Position numbers and translations under genes: made by a program | Notes under the pieces: generated by a model | What the model was told of the DNA's origin: nothing | What the model saw: only the letters and a program-made list of their open reading frames with translations | Databases searched by the model: none | NCBI RefSeq assembly: GCF_002749975.1 | Contig: NZ_PEIG01000004.1 | Location: 186,001-250,000 of the forward strand | Source of the DNA: Gloeocapsopsis sp. IPPAS B-1203 | Lineage (GTDB): Bacteria > Cyanobacteriota > Cyanobacteriia > Cyanobacteriales > Chroococcidiopsidaceae | Direction of reading: 5' to 3' | Length of the DNA: 64,000 nucleotides | Part shown: piece after piece, positions 8,521 through 20,294 of the stretch | How positions within the stretch are numbered: the stretch's first letter is position 1 | How the letters are laid out: every line of letters begins with the position of its first letter

Positions 8521-8690
8521 TATTTGAACCTCACACGACTATAAGTCGCATGATTCCTGCTTCATCGAGTCCTGCCTGAGTATTCCCAGGTCTTACAGAT
8601 TCTCCACAGGCGTTTTGAGTATCCGGCGCACCGACGGCTACTGTTAATAGTCTCAATCCCTCACGAAGAATATTGACTGCTGCCGTGCAA
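8504..8690 (-). ncRNA. Predicted omega RNA of the TnpB element (approximate limits)
   Basis: TnpB elements are known to make a guide RNA from the 3' end of tnpB, through the right end of the element, into flanking DNA. Here the tnpB stop codon lies inside the right-end hairpin (stem CGACT/AGTCG at 8536-8548). If the element ends at 8524, the guide would be the 20 bases at 8504-8523 read on the minus strand. The inner limit is a guess; the RNA itself is inferred, not seen. Confidence 0.35.
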
Positions 8691-9840
8691 TCTCTCAAAT
8701 GGTGAGTATTACACGCAGGACAATCCCATTCTCTAATACTCAAATCCTTGACTTCTGGGTTGATGAAGCCACAGCAGCTACAAGTTTGAGACGAGGGGAA
8801 AAACGGAGAAACTTTCTGCACAATTCGGTCATGCCATAGTGCTTTATATTCCAGCATGGCAACAAACTTTGACCAACTAGCATCCATAATACTGAGTGCT
8901 AATTTGTGGTTTTTTACCAGGTTAGCTACTCGTAAATCTTCAATACAGATAATGTTATTTTCTCTGATTAAACGAGTAGACAATTTGTGCAGAAAGTCAT
9001 CTCTGACATTCGTTATACGTTCGTGAATTCGAGCTAGTTTGGTTTTCGCTTTAGCTCTGTTCATGCTTCCTTTAACGCTATGAGAAAGCTTCTTGTTAGC
9101 TCTGCGTAATTTTCGTAAGTGTTGGCGATAATGCTTAGGGTTTTCAATCTCTTTCAAATCACTGGTAACAAGGTATGATTTTATCCCCAAGTCCAGCCCA
9201 ATACTTTTATCTACATAAGGATGTTTTTCTACCTCTATTTCGCACAAGATGCTAGCAATATACTTGCCTGTTTTTGTCCGAGTGACGGTAACGTTAATAA
9301 TAGAGCCGTCTATGTTTTGAGATCTGCGAAACTTTAACCAGCCTAACTTTGGGAGCTTGAGGTAGTTTTCTCTAACTTGAATGTTGCCGTTGGTGAAGTT
9401 GGTTTTATACGACTGCTTAAACCCATGCTTCTTTTTAAACTTAGGGAAACCAAACTGTCTTTTTTGTTTGGGCTTCTTCAAGTCGGCAAAAAAGTTTTTG
9501 TAAGCAGTCTCCAAATTCCTGAGTGAATTTTGAAGGGCGAACTTATCGACTTCTTTTAACCACTCTATTTCCTTCTTGAGTTGTGTTAATTCCTGACTGC
9601 ATCCACTGTAATTTAAAGTTTTCTGCTCGGATTCGTATACCTCTTTGCGTCTTGCTAAAAAGCGATTGTACACAAAGCGAGAGCATCCAATAGTCTTGTT
9701 GATTAAGACTTCTTGGTTACGGCTCGGAATTAGGATAACTTTAAATGCTTTTTGCACTTGAAAGAAGGTGTTTATTATACTCGATTATACCATCGGCGAC
9801 TAACTCATGTCTAGAAGACACGAGTGTGCGTCGCCTTTCC
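8524..9840 (-). mobile_element. IS1341-type (IS200/IS605 family) element carrying only tnpB
   Basis: The element contains tnpB without a tnpA. On the tnpB strand its left end has a strong subterminal hairpin (9795-9835: outer arms GGCGAC/GTCGCC, inner arms ACTCATGTCT/AGACACGAGT), as expected for the single-strand transposase of this family. Directly outside is TTGAT (9841-9845, minus strand), the same as the known target/TAM sequence of ISDra2. The right end has a small hairpin at 8536-8548 followed by GGTTCAA, giving a likely border at 8524. No inverted terminal repeats or target duplication are expected for this family. The exact borders are inferred. Confidence 0.7.
8531..9757 (-). CDS. 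tnpB: RNA-guided endonuclease TnpB
   Basis: A 408-residue TnpB that appears intact. The N-terminal HTH/wedge part begins '[22 protein letters not shown]'-like and is basic. The RuvC nuclease residues are all present: Asp in '[10 protein letters not shown]' (about 191), Glu in '[11 protein letters not shown]' (about 271) and Asp in '[13 protein letters not shown]' (about 361). The zinc ribbon lies between them ('[11 protein letters not shown]' and 'WDCPACNTH'). The family uses an omega RNA from its own 3' end to cut double-stranded DNA beside a TAM, which favours retention of the element. Without tnpA here, movement would need a transposase in trans. There is no sign of frameshift or decay, so nuclease activity is plausible. 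Confidence 0.92.
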
Positions 9841-11178: not shown

Positions 11179-11535
11179 ATGACTAAAACAATTGTGAATT
11201 TAACTTTGCCAATTCTCTTAGAAGAAATTGAGCTAGCACTCAATCAATATCCTCATCATCCATACCAACAAGCTTTTTCTAATCCTGACTTCCGTCAAGA
11301 ACTAATTGCTTATGTTTTGAGTAGGGTTTTTAGCAAGTATGTCGTTGTTGATGATGAAAAACGGCAGCATACTGATCTTAAAAAGATGTACTACAAACCA
11401 GATCAAAAACAAGAAAGAGAAGCTTACATTCATGAGGGAATTCATTATCTTGTTGATAAATATGCTGAATATGTCTATCACCATATTCCCTCCGAAGTAA
11501 ATTCGGGTTCTATCCCTTCTAATTGGTTTGGATAA
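11179..11535 (+). CDS. Conserved hypothetical protein, possibly ComFB-like
   Basis: A 118-residue protein and the first gene of the ATPase/MetK-like operon. 'LPILLEEIELALNQYPHHPYQQAF' is followed by 'RQELIAYVLSRVFSKYVVVDDE', which resembles the 'AYALNRLPPKY' core of ComFB-type proteins; several cyanobacterial ComFB-like proteins bind cyclic dinucleotides. The match is weak and lacks the usual cysteines, so this is a suggestion only. The C-terminal helix ('REAYIHEGIHYLVDKYAEYVYHHI') is rich in His and Tyr. The next gene starts 21 bases after the stop. No signal peptide or membrane span is seen. Confidence 0.6.
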   Translation: MTKTIVNLTLPILLEEIELALNQYPHHPYQQAFSNPDFRQELIAYVLSRVFSKYVVVDDEKRQHTDLKKMYYKPDQKQEREAYIHEGIHYLVDKYAEYVYHHIPSEVNSGSIPSNWFG

Positions 11536-11556
11536 TTGACAATGAGGAGTGAATGA

Positions 11557-12075
11557 ATGACATCAAATGAGTTACATCTTGAAATTTCAGACATGATTAC
11601 TGGATTAACAGCCGCGATCCTTGCGCCGATTGTTTTTCCTGCTGCGGCAACATTAAATCATCCAGTAACTAAAGCAATTCTTAAAGAGGGAATCATTTTA
11701 TCAGAGAAAGTCCAAGAAGCAACAGCACAAACAGAAGAAACAATCGCAGATTTAGTGGCAGAAGCAAAGACAGAATTAATTGCCCGACGTGAAAGTGAGG
11801 CGAATTCAACCTTGATAGGAAACACGCACAATTCACGAGCTACTGAGTACATTATTGATGCATTTACAGATATCAATACTCAAGTACGACAAGCTACTAA
11901 TAATATGGCTGATTTACAATTATTACTACCACTAGGATTAGGCGCGATTGCCTTGCGTCAACTACTCACAAAAGGGCTACAAATTGAAGAAATTCCTTGG
12001 TACGTTCTAGCTTGGTATGCTTTTGATAGTTTTATCAAACTCAATGAAGCAACAACACAGCGATCGCTTGAATAA
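11557..12075 (+). CDS. DUF5132-like membrane-associated protein
   Basis: A 172-residue protein. It starts with a hydrophobic segment ('MITGLTAAILAPIVFPAAATL', about 13-33), then a long helical, acidic stretch ('EKVQEATAQTEETIADLVAEAKTELIARRE'), and ends with a second hydrophobic segment ('LLLPLGLGAIALRQLL', 124-139) and an amphipathic tail. The N-terminal part fits the DUF5132 family as I recall it, often found next to HMA-domain proteins and P-type ATPases. It lies 12 bases upstream of the ATPase, so it probably is a partner or small regulatory subunit of that pump (inference). Confidence 0.65.
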   Translation: MTSNELHLEISDMITGLTAAILAPIVFPAAATLNHPVTKAILKEGIILSEKVQEATAQTEETIADLVAEAKTELIARRESEANSTLIGNTHNSRATEYIIDAFTDINTQVRQATNNMADLQLLLPLGLGAIALRQLLTKGLQIEEIPWYVLAWYAFDSFIKLNEATTQRSLE

Positions 12076-12087
12076 GAGGCAATTTTC

Positions 12088-14997
12088 GTGATTCAAGCAA
12101 TACACACAGTAGTTCCAGGAAGAGCAAGATATCGTATTGACAAGCTTTATCGCTGCGAAGATTTCAAACAGCACCTAGAATTTTATCTATCTCAGCAATC
12201 AGGCATCATTAGTGCTACTGCAAATACTTTAACAGGAAACATTTTAGTTCTCTTTGAGTTACAGCTTAGTGTCGATCGAGTACAAGAATTAATTGTAGAA
12301 GTTGCACAAAATTACAATCCACACGCTGTAAGCAATCAAGAATTGAGTACCAATCCGCAACAAAATGGTAGTTGGTATACACTCGACATCGATGCTGTTT
12401 TAGCACAGTTGCAAACATCAGATACTGGATTAACACAGGTAATTGCTCATCAATACTTACAAAAGTACGGTACAAACACTTTACCCGAAACAGTAACACG
12501 CTCAGAATGGAGCATTTTACTTGAGCAATTTCAATCATTACCTGTTGGTTTACTGTGTATTGCAGCAGGGTTATCAGTGGCGACTGGAGGACTTGCAGAT
12601 GCTGCGGTTATTATGGGTGTTGTTGGTATTAATGCAGCAATTGGTTATATTACCGAAAGTCAGTCAGAAAAAATTATTCATTCGCTCAAAAGCCGCGATC
12701 GCCCGTTAACTTCCGTCTTACGCGATCGCCAAATCGTTGAAATTAACACCGCCGAAGTTGTTCCAGGAGATGTTTTAGTTCTTAAAGCAGGAAACTATGT
12801 CGCCGCTGATGCAAGGTTAATAGCAACAGAAAATCTGAGTATCGATGAATCTGCACTGACAGGCGAAAGCTTAAGCGTGAGTAAAAGCACCGCATCACTG
12901 ATTGCTGCTGATATTTCTTTGGGCGATCGCATCAACATGGCTTACAAAGGAACGTTAGTGCTTGGGGGACAAGGTTTAGGAGTTGTTGTAGCAACAGGTA
13001 AGTTTACTGAAATCGGTAAAATTCAAGCGATGATTGGTGAAACTCCGGTAAAGTCAACACCTTTAGCGCGACAACTCGATGAAGTAGGTTCGCAACTCGT
13101 ACTACTTGCAAGTGGAGTTTGCACTCTCGTATTCGCTGCGGGATGGCTGCGAGGCTACGGTTTACTACAAATGCTTAAAACATCAATATCACTCGCTGTT
13201 GCTGCTGTACCTGAAGGTTTACCCACGATCGCAACAACAATTTTAGCGCTGGGTATCCAAGATATGCGCCAGCACAAAGTCATTGTCCGCAGTCTGAATG
13301 CAGTTGAATCCCTAGGTGCAGTCCAAAAAATTTGCCTGGATAAAACTGGCACAATTACGAAAAATCAAATGTCCGTTGTCGAGATTCACACCGACTCAAA
13401 ATTAATTTCTCTTGCAGACGGGCATCTTAATATAACAGATGCTAACACGCTCAAACTAATTCAAGTCGCAGTTTTATGTAATGAGAGCGTCGTCACGCGC
13501 GATGATAATGGCGAATATGTTGTCACAGGTTCAGCAACCGAGAATGCATTAGTTGATCTGGCGATCGCTGCTGGTATTGATGTTTTAGCACTCCGCGAAC
13601 AATACCCCTTAGTAGACACTAAGCCGCGTGCAGAAAATCGCAACTATATGAGGATGTTGCGTCGAGGTTCCCTCGACGCCCTGTCATCCGTGAGTACGCA
13701 ACTTTATCAGCATCACCAACCACTTTTTGCGGTTAAAGGTAGCCCTGGAGAAGTTCTTGATTTGTGTCATTGGCGGCTCGATAATGGTAAAAGAGTCCCG
13801 CTTACTGATGCCGAACGACTGGCGATCGCACTAGAAAATGATCGCATGGCAGGTAAAGCTTTAAGAGTACTCGGTGTTGCTTACGGATACGAAAGTACTG
13901 AGTTGGTTTGGTTGGGCTTAATCGGTATGGCAGATCCGGTGCGTCATGGTGTCAAAGATTTAATCACGCAATTTCATCAAGCAGGAATTGATACAGTCAT
14001 GATTACTGGCGATCAAACTCCTACAGCTTATGCAATTGGGAAAGAATTACAGTTAAGTCGTCACGATCAAATCCAAATTTTAGATGCGCAAGATTTAATT
14101 AACATTGACCGCGAAGCGCTGCAAGCTTTGTGTGATAAAGTCGATATCTTTGCGCGAATTAGCCCTGCAAATAAACTGCAAATCGTCCAAGCATTACAAG
14201 CAGTAGGTAAAGTGGTGGCGATGACGGGTGATGGTATTAACGATGCACCTGCTTTAAAAGCTGCCAATGTTGGTGTTGCGATGGGAACAGGAACCGATTC
14301 TGCACGGGAAGTTGCAGATATTATTTTAGAAGACAACAATCTCGCAACAATGATTGTTGCAGTCAGTCAAGGGCGGACAATTTACAACAATATCCGCAAA
14401 GCTGTCCATTTTTTACTCGCTACAAACCTCAGCGAAATTATGGTCATGGCGATCGCCACAGCAGGAGGTTTTGGTCAACCTTTAAATGCACTACAATTAC
14501 TCTGGCTCAATTTAGTCACAGATATCTTTCCCGCACTGGCTTTGGCGTTAGAACCTGCGGAACCTGATGTTTTACAAACACCGCCACGTAGTCCAGATGA
14601 GTCAATTATCAAAGCATCCGATTTTCAAAGAATTTTGTTTGAATCAACAACATTATCTGGCAGTACTTTAGCAGCTTACGCCTACGGAGTTACGCGATAT
14701 GGTATCGGAACGCGGGCAAGTACGATCGCTTTTATGAGCTTAACACTAGGACAACTTTTGCATTCCTTGAGTTGCCGCACTGAACATAGCATCTTTGAGC
14801 ATATCCCCCCTAATCAGTATTTAAATCTAGCGTTAGCTGGCTCAATGACTTTACAGTTCGTTGTTTTAGCCCCTGGATTGCGCAATTTATTAAAGCTTGC
14901 ACCATTGGATGGATGGGATTTAATTGTCATCGTTAGCAGTGCATTATTGCCGTTATTTGTCAATGAAAGTACAAAGCACCACGGTACAAATTTATGA
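12088..14997 (+). CDS. P-type cation ATPase (P2A, Ca2+-like) with N-terminal HMA-like domain
   Basis: A 969-residue ion pump with a GTG start. Residues 1-75 form an HMA-type ferredoxin-like fold ('VVPGRARYRIDKL') without a CxxC metal site. The core follows: TGES-type actuator loop ('LTGESLSVSK'), membrane motif 'VPEGLP' (about 375) as in SERCA, phosphorylation site 'DKTGT' (Asp418), 'KGSPGEV' in the nucleotide domain and hinge 'TGDGINDAPAL' (about 713). In the last spans 'NLSE' and 'LWLNLVTD' supply Asn, Glu and Asp as in Ca2+ site II of P2A pumps. Calcium is the best guess for the ion, Mn2+ is possible. An extra palindromic stretch (13656-13702) sits in frame just before 'AVKGSPGE'. The stop overlaps the next start (ATGA), so translation is coupled to the MetK-like gene. 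Confidence 0.88.
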   Translation: MIQAIHTVVPGRARYRIDKLYRCEDFKQHLEFYLSQQSGIISATANTLTGNILVLFELQLSVDRVQELIVEVAQNYNPHAVSNQELSTNPQQNGSWYTLDIDAVLAQLQTSDTGLTQVIAHQYLQKYGTNTLPETVTRSEWSILLEQFQSLPVGLLCIAAGLSVATGGLADAAVIMGVVGINAAIGYITESQSEKIIHSLKSRDRPLTSVLRDRQIVEINTAEVVPGDVLVLKAGNYVAADARLIATENLSIDESALTGESLSVSKSTASLIAADISLGDRINMAYKGTLVLGGQGLGVVVATGKFTEIGKIQAMIGETPVKSTPLARQLDEVGSQLVLLASGVCTLVFAAGWLRGYGLLQMLKTSISLAVAAVPEGLPTIATTILALGIQDMRQHKVIVRSLNAVESLGAVQKICLDKTGTITKNQMSVVEIHTDSKLISLADGHLNITDANTLKLIQVAVLCNESVVTRDDNGEYVVTGSATENALVDLAIAAGIDVLALREQYPLVDTKPRAENRNYMRMLRRGSLDALSSVSTQLYQHHQPLFAVKGSPGEVLDLCHWRLDNGKRVPLTDAERLAIALENDRMAGKALRVLGVAYGYESTELVWLGLIGMADPVRHGVKDLITQFHQAGIDTVMITGDQTPTAYAIGKELQLSRHDQIQILDAQDLINIDREALQALCDKVDIFARISPANKLQIVQALQAVGKVVAMTGDGINDAPALKAANVGVAMGTGTDSAREVADIILEDNNLATMIVAVSQGRTIYNNIRKAVHFLLATNLSEIMVMAIATAGGFGQPLNALQLLWLNLVTDIFPALALALEPAEPDVLQTPPRSPDESIIKASDFQRILFESTTLSGSTLAAYAYGVTRYGIGTRASTIAFMSLTLGQLLHSLSCRTEHSIFEHIPPNQYLNLALAGSMTLQFVVLAPGLRNLLKLAPLDGWDLIVIVSSALLPLFVNESTKHHGTNL
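13656..13702 (+). repeat. Palindromic repeat-like insert inside the ATPase gene
   Basis: Nested inverted repeats: outer arms GTTGCGT/ACGCAAC, inner hairpin CGTCGAG-GTTCC-CTCGACG. It is translated as about 15 residues (RMLRRGSLDALSSVST) that have no counterpart in related pumps as I recall them. It lies in the nucleotide-binding domain, and the frame is kept. Confidence 0.6.
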
Positions 14998-16178
14998 AAC
15001 AGGACTTTATGTTCACCTCAGAATCTGTCACTGAGGGACATCCTGATAAACTCTGCGATCGCATTAGTGACGCAATTGTCGATCGTTTTTTGCAACAAGA
15101 TCCTTATGCACGAGTGATTACCGAGTGTGCGGTTTCTACCGCAATTGTCTTTATTGCAGCAAGGTTTGAACCAAACACAAATGTTGATTTTACCAATATT
15201 GCCCGCCAGGTGATTGCACAAGTCGGTTACGACCAACCTGCATTTAATGCCAAAACGTGTAGTATCTTAACTAGCCTGAAAGAATTGCCCTGCGATCGCC
15301 TATATCATTTTGACGATCAGTTAACTGATGCAGACATCGAGCAAATTCCGGTCAAAAATCAAGTCACAGTTTTTGGTTTTGCTTGCAAACAAACTCCGGC
15401 TTTCATGCCATTACCCATTTGGCTAGCGCACAAACTAGCGAAGCAATTAAGTACTGTCAATCACAAAAACATTCTTCCCTATCTTGCGCCTGATGGTAAA
15501 ACCCAAGTAGGAGTAGAATATCGCGATCGCAAACCCGATCGCATTCACAGTATCACTATTGTTGCTAGTCAAGACACCATTCTACCTGATTTAGCACAAC
15601 TACAAGATGACATCCGTCAAACAGTCATTGATGCGGTATTTGCTGATGAAGAGATTCGTCCCGATGCTGCAACGAGAATTTTTATTAACCCTGAAGGTTT
15701 ATTTATCACAGGTGGTCCTTATGTCCACGCTGGATTAACAGGAAGAAAAAATGCAATTGATACTTACGGTGAATACTCTAAGCATAGCGGAGCAGCTTTA
15801 AGTGGTAAAGATCCGATCCGCATTGATCGCATAGGTGCATATATGGCACGATATGCAGCAAAAAATATCGTCGCGGCAAATTTGGCAGATGAGTGTGAAG
15901 TACAACTGAGTTATTCTATCGGTTTAGCTCGCCCAGTCAGCATCCAGGTTGAAACCTTTGGTACAGGCAAAATTTCTGACACTGAATTGACAACACTTCT
16001 AGAACAGCATTTTGATTTTCGCTTAGCGGCGATCGTGCGAGACTTTAAATTACGTTATCTCCCTGCACTCACCCCAGGTGGATTTTATACAAAACTTGCT
16101 GCCTACGGTCATGTCGGCAGAACAGATATAAATTTACCCTGGGAAGCAACCGATAAAGTTACGGCATTGGCACTGTAG
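14994..16178 (+). CDS. Divergent S-adenosylmethionine synthetase-like protein
   Basis: A 394-residue MetK-fold protein that overlaps the ATPase stop by four bases. ATP/triphosphate residues are kept: 'TEGHPDKLCDRISDAIVD' (His/Asp), 'DGKTQV' (Lys), 'GLTGRK' (Lys), 'SGKDP' (Lys) and the C-terminal 'AAYGHVGR' and 'LPWEATDK'. By alignment from memory with E. coli MetK, the methionine contacts are changed: the Glu of 'VGGEITT' is Arg in 'IAARFEP', the active-site loop with Gln98 is replaced by 'ELPCDRLYHFDDQLTD', 'GDQGLMFG' is 'KNQVTVFG', 'GDCGLTGRK' is 'VHAGLTGRK', and the Lys after SGKDP is Arg. It is therefore probably not the housekeeping enzyme; it may use another substrate, or act on ATP alone. 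Its tight coupling to a cation pump suggests a joint role. Confidence 0.8.
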   Translation: MKQDFMFTSESVTEGHPDKLCDRISDAIVDRFLQQDPYARVITECAVSTAIVFIAARFEPNTNVDFTNIARQVIAQVGYDQPAFNAKTCSILTSLKELPCDRLYHFDDQLTDADIEQIPVKNQVTVFGFACKQTPAFMPLPIWLAHKLAKQLSTVNHKNILPYLAPDGKTQVGVEYRDRKPDRIHSITIVASQDTILPDLAQLQDDIRQTVIDAVFADEEIRPDAATRIFINPEGLFITGGPYVHAGLTGRKNAIDTYGEYSKHSGAALSGKDPIRIDRIGAYMARYAAKNIVAANLADECEVQLSYSIGLARPVSIQVETFGTGKISDTELTTLLEQHFDFRLAAIVRDFKLRYLPALTPGGFYTKLAAYGHVGRTDINLPWEATDKVTALAL

Positions 16179-16735: not shown

Positions 16736-16990
16736 ATGAATACGGATCATATTGAACAAGAAGCTCGTGAGGCAATGGCACAACAGCGCCAGCATGAGGA
16801 GCATTTGCAGCAATCAATGTTGAGCCGTTCTGAGGCGGAAGTTGATACACCACCTGGTAGTCACACCGCAGAAGAAGCTAGGGAATTAATGATTGAGCAA
16901 CGCCAGCAAGAAGAGCAGTTACAACAGTCAATGCTGAATCGTTCTGCTGCTGAAGTAGGTTTGTCTCAGGATAAGTCTTCTCAGAAGTAG
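16736..16990 (+). CDS. Small protein with two internal repeats
   Basis: An 84-residue, charged, Gln/Glu-rich protein with a good ribosome-binding site (GGAGGG). It consists of two tandem ~28-residue repeats: 'EAREAMAQQRQHEEHLQQSM' at about 9-28, and 'EARELMIEQRQQEEQLQQSM' at about 47-66, each followed by LSRSEAEV or LNRSAAEV. Each repeat should form one long helix, perhaps a coiled-coil. No cysteine, membrane span or known domain is present. The function is unknown. The repeats suggest internal duplication. Confidence 0.65.
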   Translation: MNTDHIEQEAREAMAQQRQHEEHLQQSMLSRSEAEVDTPPGSHTAEEARELMIEQRQQEEQLQQSMLNRSAAEVGLSQDKSSQK

Positions 16991-17672: not shown

Positions 17673-18500
17673 CTAAAAGCGTTGCGCTAAAATACCCTGA
17701 TGAGGGCTAAACAACAAAGCAAGCAGAAACAACCCTGAGACAACCAGGACTATCGCTGCACCTGAAGGGATATTCAAGTAATAACTAAGATACATACCAC
17801 TTACACTGCTGATCATTCCAAAAACTGCACCTACTATCATCATGTGATGAAGTTCTTTGACAAGCATGTAAGCTGTGATTCCTGGACCAACTAGTAGGGA
17901 AACAACGAGTATCACTCCTACAGCCTGCATACTAGCAATAATAGTTAAAGTAATTGCAGCATTTAACCCAAAATGAATGAGTTGTACAGGTAAACCTATA
18001 GCTTGCGCTCCTAAAGGATCAAAAGTATAAAATAATAATTCTTTATAAAAAAGCTTGACTAAAACTAAAACAAAAATAGTGATAATTAAAGTCTGCCAAA
18101 TATCTGTAGCAGTTACTCCTAAAATATCACCAAACAGAAATTGATGTAAATCAAGTTTACTCTGCAACACAGTAATTAAAGTAATTCCTAATGCTAAAAA
18201 TCCAGAGAAAACTAACGCCATAGCAACATCAACTTTAATCCGAGATTGAGATTCAATCCAAGTAATGACAAACGTACTCAGTGTTCCAGAAATAAATGCA
18301 CCGAGATAAATATCTATGCCAAAGAAAAAAGCGATCGCTAGTCCTGGTAAAACAGCATGAGCAATAACATCTCCTAATAAACCCATCCGCTGCACAATTA
18401 AATAAGTTCCCACAACCGCACACAAAACTCCTAGCAAAACTGCTGTGGCGATCGCATGACGCATAAATTCAAAAGTTAAAGGTTCAATTAACCAATTCAT
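17673..18500 (-). CDS. znuB: Zn/Mn ABC transporter permease (ABC-3 family)
   Basis: A 275-residue membrane subunit of the ABC-3 (ZnuB/MntB/TroC) family with about eight hydrophobic spans. Family hallmarks are the early 'GTYLIVQRMGLLGDVIAHAVLPGLAIAF' and later 'LGAQAIGLPV' and 'LLVGPGITAYML' regions. Its start overlaps the end of the ATPase gene by four bases (ATGA), which indicates an operon. The metal is probably zinc, from the His-rich binding protein next door and the Zur-like box, but manganese cannot be excluded since cyanobacterial mnt systems use the same family. Confidence 0.9.
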   Translation of the reverse strand: MNWLIEPLTFEFMRHAIATAVLLGVLCAVVGTYLIVQRMGLLGDVIAHAVLPGLAIAFFFGIDIYLGAFISGTLSTFVITWIESQSRIKVDVAMALVFSGFLALGITLITVLQSKLDLHQFLFGDILGVTATDIWQTLIITIFVLVLVKLFYKELLFYTFDPLGAQAIGLPVQLIHFGLNAAITLTIIASMQAVGVILVVSLLVGPGITAYMLVKELHHMMIVGAVFGMISSVSGMYLSYYLNIPSGAAIVLVVSGLFLLALLFSPHQGILAQRF

Positions 18501-19225
18501 ATAATTTGTTGATTCAAAAGTAGTACACTATCTCCATAAGCACGTTGAATATTTTCACTTGTAAAAACTTCTTTGAGCGATCCATGAGCAATAATTTTAC
18601 GATTCAATAGCAAGAGGCGATCGCACTGCGCTAATGCACCTCCTAAATCATGCGTAATCAGTAACAAAATTTTTCCTTGAAGTTTCAATTCTTCAAAAAC
18701 CTCAAACATAATCGATTCTGTCTTTTTATCAATCCCGACAAAAGGTTCGTCAAAAAAGAACAACTCAGCCTCTTGAGCTAGGGTACGAGCCAAAAATACC
18801 CGTTGTTGCTGTCCTCCTGAAAGTTCCCCAATCGAACGCCGCCGTAAATGAGAGATTCCTACACGTTCCATTGCTGCTGCAGCAATTTCTCTTGAGCGAC
18901 GGCTATGTTCGCGCAACCAACCTGTGTGCATGGTGCGCCCCATTAAGACAACACGCTCTACAGTAATGGGATAGTCCCAATCAATCGCCGATCTCTGTGG
19001 CACGTAGGCAACTGAGTGTAATTGCTGTTTAAGCGATCGCGCCCTATACCTCACTCTACCACTCGCTGTTGGTACTAAACCTAAAATGCCCTTGACTAGC
19101 GTACTTTTTCCTGCCCCATTTGGACCAATCACGCCAACAATTTGTCCTGGTTGTAAGCAAAAACTGACATCCTCAACAGCAGAAATTCCTTGGTAGTTGA
19201 CACCTAAGTGCTGAACCTCTAACAT
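18497..19225 (-). CDS. znuC: Zn/Mn ABC transporter ATP-binding protein
   Basis: A 242-residue ATPase of the ZnuC/MntA type. I start at ATG 19225 (MLEVQHLGVNYQGISAVEDV); the frame is open 18 codons upstream but that would cross the shared promoter. Walker A is 'GPNGAGKST', signature 'LSGGQQQRVFLARTL', Walker B 'LFFFDEPF', and the switch His is in 'LLITHDLGG'. It is the first gene of the two-gene operon with the permease and is divergent from the binding-protein gene 43 bases away. Confidence 0.92.
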   Translation of the reverse strand: MLEVQHLGVNYQGISAVEDVSFCLQPGQIVGVIGPNGAGKSTLVKGILGLVPTASGRVRYRARSLKQQLHSVAYVPQRSAIDWDYPITVERVVLMGRTMHTGWLREHSRRSREIAAAAMERVGISHLRRRSIGELSGGQQQRVFLARTLAQEAELFFFDEPFVGIDKKTESIMFEVFEELKLQGKILLLITHDLGGALAQCDRLLLLNRKIIAHGSLKEVFTSENIQRAYGDSVLLLNQQII

Positions 19226-19238
19226 GACATTTTTAGAA

Positions 19239-19253
19239 TGATAATGATAATCA
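19239..19253. promoter_or_regulatory. Zur/Fur-type operator in the divergent promoter
   Basis: TGATAAT-G-ATAATCA is a 7-1-7 palindrome differing by one base from TGATAAT-N-ATTATCA, the form of cyanobacterial Zur/Fur sites. It fills the 43-base gap between znuC and znuA, so one bound repressor could control both. Confidence 0.7.
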
Positions 19254-19268
19254 AAAAATAAATTGAAA

Positions 19269-20294
19269 ATGTTACACAAGCATTATCAGCAAATTGTCCT
19301 AACCATAACCTTGGGGTTAATCGGCTGTAATCCAACACCAACAGGACAAGATACAACAACACAACCTGCGGGCGATCGCCCCTCAGTGATTGCAACTACC
19401 AGTGTACTGTGTGACATGACACAACAAGTTGCCGCTGAGACTATTGATTTAACATGCATGGTTGCACCAGGAGAAGACCCTCATTTGTATCAACCTACAC
19501 CTGAAGACCGCAAAGCGATCGAACAAGCAGATTTAATTCTATACGGTGGTTACGATTTTGAACCAGCTTTAATCAAATTAGTTGAAGCTACTAGTAATCC
19601 TGCACCAAAAGTTGCAGTACATGAAGTTGCAGTTTCGCAGCCAATTATGGCAGAACCTCACAGTCACGGACACGATCATGAGCATTCTCATGACGACGGT
19701 AGTACAGCAGAGGAAAATGCACCAGATCCTCATGTATGGCATAGTGCCCAAAATGGTATTGCCATGGTAGAAACTATTCGCGATAACCTAGAGCAAATAG
19801 CACCAAATCACGCATCGCTCTACAACAGCAACGCCCAACAAGTGACTAGCGAATTAACTCAAATCGATACCTGGATCAAATCACAAATTGCCACAATTCC
19901 ACCCCAGCAACGCAAGTTAGTTACGACCCATGATGCGATGAACTACTATTCTCAGGCATATGGTATCCCTATTGAAGGAGCATTAGGAGGCATTAGTACA
20001 GAGGAAGCACCTACTGCTGCTAGAGTTAGCGAACTAGTCAAAGATATTCGCCAATCGAGTGTACCAACAATTTTTGCCGAAGCAACGATTAATCCGAGGT
20101 TGATTGAAACTGTTGCTAGAGAAGCCAATGTTCAAGTTTCAGAGCGTAAGCTTTTTGCCGATGGCTTAGGAGAACCAGGAACTGATGCTGATACCTACCA
20201 AAACAAGCTTATTGCTAATACTCGCACTATTGTAGAAGGACTAGGCGGTAACTACACACCTCCACAAGTAGCTAGTAAAAGGGGTGAGGGGTGA
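19269..20294 (+). CDS. znuA: Metal ABC transporter substrate-binding lipoprotein, His-rich (ZnuA-like)
   Basis: A 341-residue periplasmic binding protein. The ATG at 19269 begins a lipoprotein signal with lipobox 'LGLIGC' (Cys about 20). Metal ligands expected of the cluster A-I family are visible: His in 'GEDPHLYQPTPED', His in 'DPHVWHS', His in 'VTTHDAM' and an acidic residue in 'IFAEATINP'. A His/Asp-rich loop ('HSHGHDHEHSHDD', about 133-145) between the first two is characteristic of zinc-binding ZnuA rather than manganese-binding MntC. The last four residues before the stop come from a GGGGTGA tandem repeat, suggesting the original C-terminus was altered. Regulation through the shared Zur/Fur-like box is likely. 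Confidence 0.88.
   Translation: MLHKHYQQIVLTITLGLIGCNPTPTGQDTTTQPAGDRPSVIATTSVLCDMTQQVAAETIDLTCMVAPGEDPHLYQPTPEDRKAIEQADLILYGGYDFEPALIKLVEATSNPAPKVAVHEVAVSQPIMAEPHSHGHDHEHSHDDGSTAEENAPDPHVWHSAQNGIAMVETIRDNLEQIAPNHASLYNSNAQQVTSELTQIDTWIKSQIATIPPQQRKLVTTHDAMNYYSQAYGIPIEGALGGISTEEAPTAARVSELVKDIRQSSVPTIFAEATINPRLIETVAREANVQVSERKLFADGLGEPGTDADTYQNKLIANTRTIVEGLGGNYTPPQVASKRGEG

Follow-up and report, generated by a model that had tools for sequence, protein, structure and literature searches.

Methionine adenosyltransferase (MAT; MetK in bacteria) is highly conserved and thought to be essential, and it catalyzes a rare reaction in which C5' of ATP is attacked and triphosphate is released. Ferrosome clusters, in turn, encode a P1B6 pump with an arginine-rich N-terminal motif together with small membrane proteins. 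Here we analyzed a window of Gloeocapsopsis sp. IPPAS B-1203, that is, the whole stretch of 64,000 nucleotides at positions 186,001 to 250,000 of contig NZ_PEIG01000004.1, in which a MetK homologue, designated MetK2, is encoded directly downstream of a P2A-type cation pump (coordinates below are those of the window). Enzyme family and pump family are both of known kinds; the rebuilt active site of MetK2 and its near-fixed partnership with the pump appear to be new.

In Escherichia coli MetK, as described in PMC3853416, Asp238 and Glu55 bind the amino group of methionine, Gln98 and Lys269 its carboxylate, and Ile102 its side chain; the ribose of ATP is held by Asp163 and Asp238, Phe230 stacks on the adenine, and His14 is the presumed catalytic acid. 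A divergent MAT-family clade with a long stem has been described in eukaryotes as MATX, which by the account in PMC3923989 is mutually exclusive with MAT, with few exceptions, so that MATX probably makes S-adenosylmethionine (SAM). MetK2 likewise forms a divergent clade on a long stem, and it differs from MATX in usually occurring alongside a normal MetK and a pump. An earlier reading of the window from its letters (the original prediction) could place the pump and the MetK homologue in no known pathway, and among the literature matches listed we found neither a description of MetK2 or of a MetK-pump pair nor a system to which the genes could be assigned, nor any experiment on a member of the family. 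The S-adenosylmethionine synthetase alr4124 that a paper on FurC (PMC10406281) names was left out of the argument.

The methionine and ATP sites of MetK2

MetK2 (394 aa; 14994..16178, + strand) is a full-length MetK homologue belonging to the family of TIGR01034, and its N-terminal, central and C-terminal Pfam domains (PF00438, PF02772 and PF02773) were matched at 122.1, 121.7 and 185.5 bits. It is 43% identical to E. coli MetK and 49-50% identical to the housekeeping MetK of its host. Its AlphaFold2 (AF2) model was closest to MATs, with a TM-score of 0.84; this monomer model has low confidence at residues 98-102, 248-270 and 370-380, and two of these stretches hold site residues.

Relatives were collected by scanning two short MetK2 peptide patterns over one genome per species (84,980 species), and the best 80 of 166 relatives were analyzed. 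The MetK2 alignment comprised 75 rows, after 6 of 81 rows shorter than 380 aa (L076, L083, L092, L119, L127 and L132) had been left out, and the housekeeping MetK alignment comprised 38 rows, without three of the 39 housekeeping loci (L161, L170 and L171) in which the start motif was not found. With such sampling, invariance inside the patterns (e.g., at Asn253, Ala254 and Glu260) is built in. The positions of Glu55, Gln98, Ile102, Asp238 and Lys269 lie outside both patterns, and 11 cyanobacterial MetK2 proteins found by full-length similarity carried the same methionine-site changes as the pattern-found set.

Each of the five methionine contacts was kept in 0/75 MetK2 proteins, and all five were kept in 38/38 housekeeping MetK proteins. 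At the position of Glu55, an amino-group contact, MetK2 has Arg57 (codon at 15162..15164, + strand), which is Arg in all 75 sequences and Glu in all 38 housekeeping ones. Asp238, which serves both the methionine amino group and the ribose, is replaced by His245 (15726..15728, +; His in 75/75, Asp in 38/38), and the carboxylate contact Lys269 by Arg276 (15819..15821, +; Arg in 75/75, Lys in 38/38). The codons for Leu98 to Arg102 (15285..15299, +) correspond to the stretch from Gln98, a carboxylate contact, to Ile102, the side-chain contact; Gln98 and Ile102 are present in every housekeeping row and in no MetK2 row. Leu stands at the Gln98 position in 67/75 MetK2 proteins, and the Ile102 position, a column made less sure by alignment gaps in this loop, is mostly polar (Gln 18, Glu 17, Lys 7, others), with Arg102 in the window protein. 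MetK2 has lost 28 of the 134 columns that show near-invariance in housekeeping MetK, the five methionine contacts all being among them (chance 3e-4). Other residues became fixed in MetK2, namely Phe58, Asn253, Ala254, Glu260, Ser265 and Leu269 (75/75 each).

The ATP side is largely retained. Asp16, Asp271, Glu42, Lys165, Arg244, Lys245 and Lys265 have metal and phosphate roles in MetK. His14, Asp16, Glu42, Arg244, Lys245 and Lys265 were kept in 75/75 MetK2 proteins, Asp163 and Asp271 in 74/75 each, and Lys165 in 71/75. The position of Arg229 is mostly Pro in MetK2; this says little, since Arg229 acts through its backbone carbonyl (PMC3853416). The original prediction had held that the homologue keeps the residues for ATP and triphosphate and replaces those known to hold methionine (Glu55, Gln98, Asp238 and Lys269). 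Both halves were borne out, the first by nine residues present in 71 to 75 of 75 sequences and the second by all four named positions, with Ile102 in addition; at Asp118, also singled out there, 63 of the 78 MetK2 rows with a letter have Asn and 13 have Asp.

Plain decay of the enzyme does not account for this pattern, since three of the replacements are single residues fixed over several phyla and the ATP side is mostly intact. Judged by its residues, MetK2 is not an ordinary MAT and is conserved as if it were active. It has in common with bacterial MetK (TIGR01034; E. coli MetK) the three-domain full-length fold, the catalytic histidine and most of the metal and triphosphate residues; it differs in the five replaced methionine contacts, its separate clade, its other fixed residues and its pump partner.

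In a quick tree of the 75 MetK2 and 38 housekeeping rows, the two groups fell on two sides of one branch with a support of 100, and in view of this separate long branch a recent duplication of the host metK was dropped as the origin of MetK2. A second, normal metK, for which the prediction had proposed a search, is present in the host genome (G000:C2:542629-543843). Among 26 other genomes with MetK2 (22 non-cyanobacterial and 4 cyanobacterial), 24 were found to carry another metK, two of them as fragments only (G247 and G250). As a separate observation, neither a bacterial metK (PF02773) nor an archaeal-type MAT (PF01941) was found in the cyanobacterial genomes G051 and G095, which are 99% complete in one and two contigs; masking, an assembly gap or real loss are possible causes.

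Of the best 80 relatives, 54 are cyanobacterial. The others come from Nitrospirota, Thermodesulfobacteriota, Planctomycetota including Brocadia, Myxococcota, Binatota, Methylomirabilota, one gammaproteobacterium and a Chloroflexaceae fragment, with phylum labels taken from record annotation and from the taxonomy of draft genomes. The family is sporadic: MetK2 was found in 11/244 evenly drawn cyanobacterial genomes (host included) and in 2/47 genomes of the order to which the Nitrospirota genome of L106 belongs. Cyanobacterial MetK2 formed two subclades amid sequences of other phyla, which is in keeping with a transfer of the gene into cyanobacteria. This tree and the pump tree were quick builds with no bootstrap and gave long-branch warnings.

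The P2A pump and its linkage to MetK2

Pump and MetK2 genes are inherited together as a unit. A pump gene lies directly upstream of MetK2 on the same strand in 74/80 loci, in three of which (L101, L111 and L129) it is cut by a contig edge. The six exceptions include three loci that start at a contig edge (L092, L115 and L119) and a decayed one (L127); in the genomes of the other two, L123 and L126, the pump is encoded elsewhere (59% identity). When the genomes of the contig-edge loci L092, L115 and L119 were searched for the pump, the identities obtained were 61% (over part of the protein), 57% and, for L119, 38%. The pump (E<=1e-250) was detected in 13 of the 244 cyanobacterial genomes, including all 11 with MetK2.

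The pump tree largely mirrors the MetK2 tree. The pump alignment has 70 rows (11/80 loci had no pump row above 800 bits); L076 carries its clade B label by default in the pump tree and has no row in the MetK2 tree. Hydrococcus rivularis (L114/L117) and Fischerella thermalis (L105/L124) each have two pump-MetK2 pairs, one for each cyanobacterial subclade, and both genes of each pair match the subclade. The unlinked pumps L177 and L176, from the genomes of L123 and L126, cluster beside the Fischerella pumps, as do the MetK2 proteins of these genomes. Of the evidence that the two products may work together, this common history of genes that are no longer linked is the strongest. A disrupted copy was seen in L041 (8006-13334), where a 283-aa opposite-strand open reading frame (ORF), transposase-like by eye, lies between the pump and MetK2, and the N-terminus of MetK2 is unrelated sequence.

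The window pump (969 aa, GTG start; 12088..14997, + strand) is a P2-type ATPase by profile, and over about residues 104-950 its nearest solved structures are human SPCA1 (8iww) and the Listeria calcium ATPase lmo0841 (6zhf). The phosphorylation motif DKTGT, the TGES motif and the hinge motif TGDGIND were present in 70/70 pumps. The ion-site residues are of the calcium type. Glu376 of the PEGLP motif in M4 (13213..13215, +) and the M5-M6 residues Asn780, Glu783, Asn808, Thr811 and Asp812 (14425..14523, +) were found in 70/70 pumps, with Thr811 being Thr in 47 and Ser in 23. Of these, Glu376, Asn780, Glu783, Asn808 and Asp812 correspond to the Ca-binding positions in M4, M5 and M6 of SERCA; at the M8 Glu position, assigned by eye, the window pump has Thr886. 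Its scores against curated equivalog models were below every cut-off listed (PMR1 type, 595.3 against 798.3; SERCA type, 550.4 against 703.4), which leaves the identity of the ion, whether Ca, Mn or another divalent one, at the level of a prediction.

The N-terminus of the pump (12088..12318, +) has an HMA-like fold in the AF2 model, with predicted local distance difference test scores above 90 for residues 1-70, and a weak HMA_2 match (25.5 bits, cut-off 30). A Foldseek search with it gave copper-ATPase (RAN1) and MerP domains at a root-mean-square deviation of 1.5 over 62-64 columns with weak E values of 4e-3 to 9e-3; no match was below 1e-3, and the top match was an archaeal RNA polymerase subunit. 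The HMA-fused P2A ATPase named in the original prediction was recovered in this form. In the window pump the metal ligand Cys-x-x-Cys is absent from this region and an arginine motif, His-x4-Gly-Arg-x-Arg, stands in its stead; Gly11, Arg12 and Arg14 were present in 70/70 pumps and His6 in 69/70. The pump thus has PEGLP in M4, Asn-x-x-Glu in M5 and Asn-x-x-Thr/Ser-Asp in M6 in common with the P2A calcium pumps SPCA1, lmo0841 and SERCA, and it differs from them in the extra HMA-fold domain with its arginine motif, the equivalog scores under the cut-offs, and the MetK2 partner.

A possible cation-phosphate module

Further genes recur around the pair. A DUF5132 protein is encoded upstream of it in 37/80 loci, comprising 20 cyanobacterial loci and 17/25 non-cyanobacterial ones (the neighbour analysis covered 25 of 26 non-cyanobacterial loci, the 4-kb contig of L092 being left out); a literature search for DUF5132 returned no papers. 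In 18 non-cyanobacterial loci (e.g., L106:5380-6060; model from 13), a protein of 211-251 aa with amphipathic repeats is encoded shortly before the pump. Two representatives had no Pfam match over the cut-off, and the protein looks phasin- or LEA-like. In L084 (46-5261), DUF5132 and HMA_2 proteins and a P1B heavy-metal ATPase adjoin the pump-MetK2 pair, and more DUF5132 or HMA_2 genes were seen near L090, L097, L102 and L116. Phosphate importer (Pst) genes were found within the retrieved flanks of 8/25 non-cyanobacterial loci: in six, all from Nitrospirota, they lie upstream on the opposite strand, and in L119 and L128 they lie downstream and are of another Pst type. The Pst type was tested in L100, L106, L119 and L128 and assigned by clustering in the remainder.

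These arrangements recall the ferrosome. The Fez pump, too, has an arginine-rich, HMA-type N-terminus. As far as ferrosome (Fez) clusters are described in PMC10979944, PMC12574912 and PMC12748827, they also have in common with the MetK2 loci a membrane pump and small membrane proteins, a likeness extended by the DUF5132/HMA_2/P1B-pump cluster beside the pair in L084. They include FezC, a DUF4405-like cytochrome (PMC10979944), and their iron pump FezB is of P1B type, unlike the P2A pump linked to MetK2. The participation of a MAT-family enzyme is a further difference.

The original prediction had linked a cation pump with a MetK homologue that may have been re-purposed away from methionine. This idea is supported by the lost contacts, the other metK and the pump linkage, and none of the three outcomes that the prediction had named as refuting it was observed. 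Given the change of the methionine pocket from acidic and amide residues to Arg, His and Arg, the second substrate is probably an anion, for which phosphate, either single or as a chain, and an acidic thio compound are candidates. From the linkage, co-inheritance, substitutions and retained residues observed here we infer an activity, a substrate, an ion and a storage role, and the resulting reading, to which we give an even chance, is that a MAT-family enzyme for which methionine has ceased to be a substrate, and whose second substrate is probably anionic, serves a Ca/Mn-type P2A pump in a ferrosome-like cation-phosphate module. MetK2 would bind ATP in the manner of MetK, with Mg and K. An anion in the old place of methionine, near Arg57, His245 and Arg276, would then attack C5' of ATP or join in phosphate-chain chemistry, and the triphosphate would be cleaved by the retained site. 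The product or the freed phosphate would be required at the site to which the pump moves its ion, perhaps in a membrane-bound store; the putative HMA-fold N-terminus of the pump carries its arginine motif in the place of metal-binding cysteines. The DUF5132 and HMA_2 membrane proteins would belong to the same module, as would the amphipathic-repeat protein in many non-cyanobacteria, and the module may store or handle a divalent cation with phosphate.

A bolder form of this proposal, which we put forward tentatively and regard as rather unlikely to hold in all its parts, is a new MAT-family reaction, either phosphate-chain chemistry or one in which an anion accepts the adenosyl group, that, with a dedicated Ca/Mn P2A pump, would make up a cation-phosphate storage module, a calcium-side counterpart of the ferrosome, in at least five phyla and hidden by a curated MetK name. 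If so, the exchange of a whole methionine site, fixed over several phyla, would amount to new chemistry on an old scaffold. The near-constant pump partner provides a handle on the function of MetK2 and could link ATP or phosphate chemistry to bacterial cation handling. Since MetK2 passes the curated methionine adenosyltransferase cut-off, annotations may be wrong, and so may metabolic models, where they take it for a source of SAM.

Several observations weigh against the module reading. The curated NCBI rule would name MetK2 methionine adenosyltransferase (TIGR01034 score of 382.8 bits, cut-off 309.4), and in the draft genomes G248 and G263 MetK2 was the sole MetK found, an observation compatible with a functional MAT as well as with a gap in the assembly. 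Phe230, the adenine contact, was kept in only 60/75 MetK2 proteins, and Ser99, an adenosine contact of MetK according to PMC1282579, is Pro in 61/75, so nucleotide binding in MetK2 may differ; triphosphate ligands, moreover, vary between MATs (PMC3853416). Concerning the partnership, G199 has a pump of 61% identity and G070 a more distant form (56%) that lacks the HMA part, both without MetK2; no close pump was found in G273, the genome of L119 (best identity, 38%); and L055 is discordant between the pump and MetK2 trees. As for phosphate, 17/25 non-cyanobacterial loci are without Pst neighbours, 6 of the 8 loci that have them represent one arrangement among related Nitrospirota, and in cyanobacteria Pst did not figure in the 14 most frequent neighbour families. 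The parallel with ferrosomes is a lead.

MetK2 might instead be a polyphosphate or tripolyphosphate hydrolase, an unlikely alternative and the strongest that we considered. The adenosyl half of the reaction would be gone, a phosphate chain would lie in the positively charged pocket, across the old ATP/methionine site, and phosphate would be supplied or removed for the cation store. The retained triphosphate-side residues and the basic residues where adenosine met methionine fit such an activity, as do the Pro at the Ser99 position, the Pst genes near 8/25 non-cyanobacterial loci, and the His found in 75/75 sequences in place of Asp238, which is also a ribose ligand (PMC3853416). Binding of adenosine is nevertheless suggested by the ribose residue Asp163 in 74/75 sequences and by the adenine-stacking Phe230 where it is kept.

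Another alternative is that MetK2 is a MAT of the ordinary kind, an isozyme whose methionine site is unusual and which makes SAM under special conditions. An archaeal MAT holds the methionine carboxylate by other residues (PMC3853416), and the full-length fold, the closeness of the AF2 model to MATs, the score above the curated cut-off and the two draft genomes in which MetK2 is the sole MetK found agree with such an enzyme. The archaeal MAT of T. kodakarensis, as described in the same source, nonetheless keeps the aspartate equivalent to Asp238, which is His in 75/75 MetK2 proteins; basic residues at the two positions whose acidic side chains bind the amino group in MetK would ill suit an amino acid, and another metK accompanies MetK2 in 24/26 genomes, even if two of these copies are fragments. 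We consider the isozyme quite improbable.

Slightly less probable still is a catalytically silent, nucleotide-sensing subunit that would bind the pump and set its rate. Near-constant pairing and co-inheritance with one pump, and the kept ATP and metal residues, would be expected of it, but a sensor would need less than what is conserved over several phyla, namely the catalytic histidine and nearly all Mg and phosphate ligands, and we noticed no fusion of MetK2 to the pump in reading the ORF tables for the 80 loci. That the two genes are neighbours by history only, on a co-transferred stress island and with no joint function, is highly improbable: the position of cyanobacterial MetK2 amid Nitrospirota and others is in keeping with transfer, and a pyridoxamine-oxidase-like gene lies upstream on the opposite strand in 25/54 cyanobacterial loci (one tested), yet the pair persists across several phyla while other neighbours change, and the two trees largely match even for unlinked genes.

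The four genes of the window locus and their flanks

In the window, two small genes precede the pump on the + strand. The first (11179..11535) encodes a ComFB-like protein of 118 aa with a sub-threshold match to ComFB PF10719 (20.4 bits, cut-off 25), and the second (11557..12075) a 172-aa DUF5132 protein (33.6 bits) with a C-terminal HMA_2-like part, the match being to the C-terminal portion of HMA_2 (18.2 bits, sub-threshold). ORF calls confirmed the predicted close packing of the four genes, with distances of 21 and 12 bases followed by a 4-base overlap between the pump and MetK2; over the 80 loci, gap lengths between pump and MetK2 rest on estimated start codons. From this spacing, a single transcript for all four genes is inferred. 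The proposed neighbourhood stood as regards the pump directly upstream of MetK2, but the four-gene order proved not to be general: DUF5132 is found in fewer than half of the loci, and in the flanks that were looked at (genomes were not searched) the ComFB-like gene accompanies the pair in just two cases, the window and Gloeocapsopsis crepidinum, a close relative of the host, whose MetK2 is 97% identical (locus L054). Control by cyclic dinucleotides through the ComFB-like protein was dropped as a general feature. On the other side of the pair, a CorA-like gene follows MetK2 in five loci (one tested).

About 1.4 kb upstream of the operon, an IS605-type OrfB/TnpB transposase with a Cas12f1-like TNB domain is encoded at 8531-9757 on the - strand. 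Downstream, the ORF at 16736-16990 (+) encodes a doubled IF7-like protein of 84 aa, with two matches to the glutamine synthetase inactivating factor IF7A (47.5 bits, cut-off 70). An ABC-3 family metal transporter permease (by Pfam) and its ATPase (by eye) are encoded at 17673-19279 (-). Among ten loci compared, such a transporter was seen near MetK2 in L034 alone, and in this sister genome it is followed by a ZnuA-type binding protein (L034:12770-13801).

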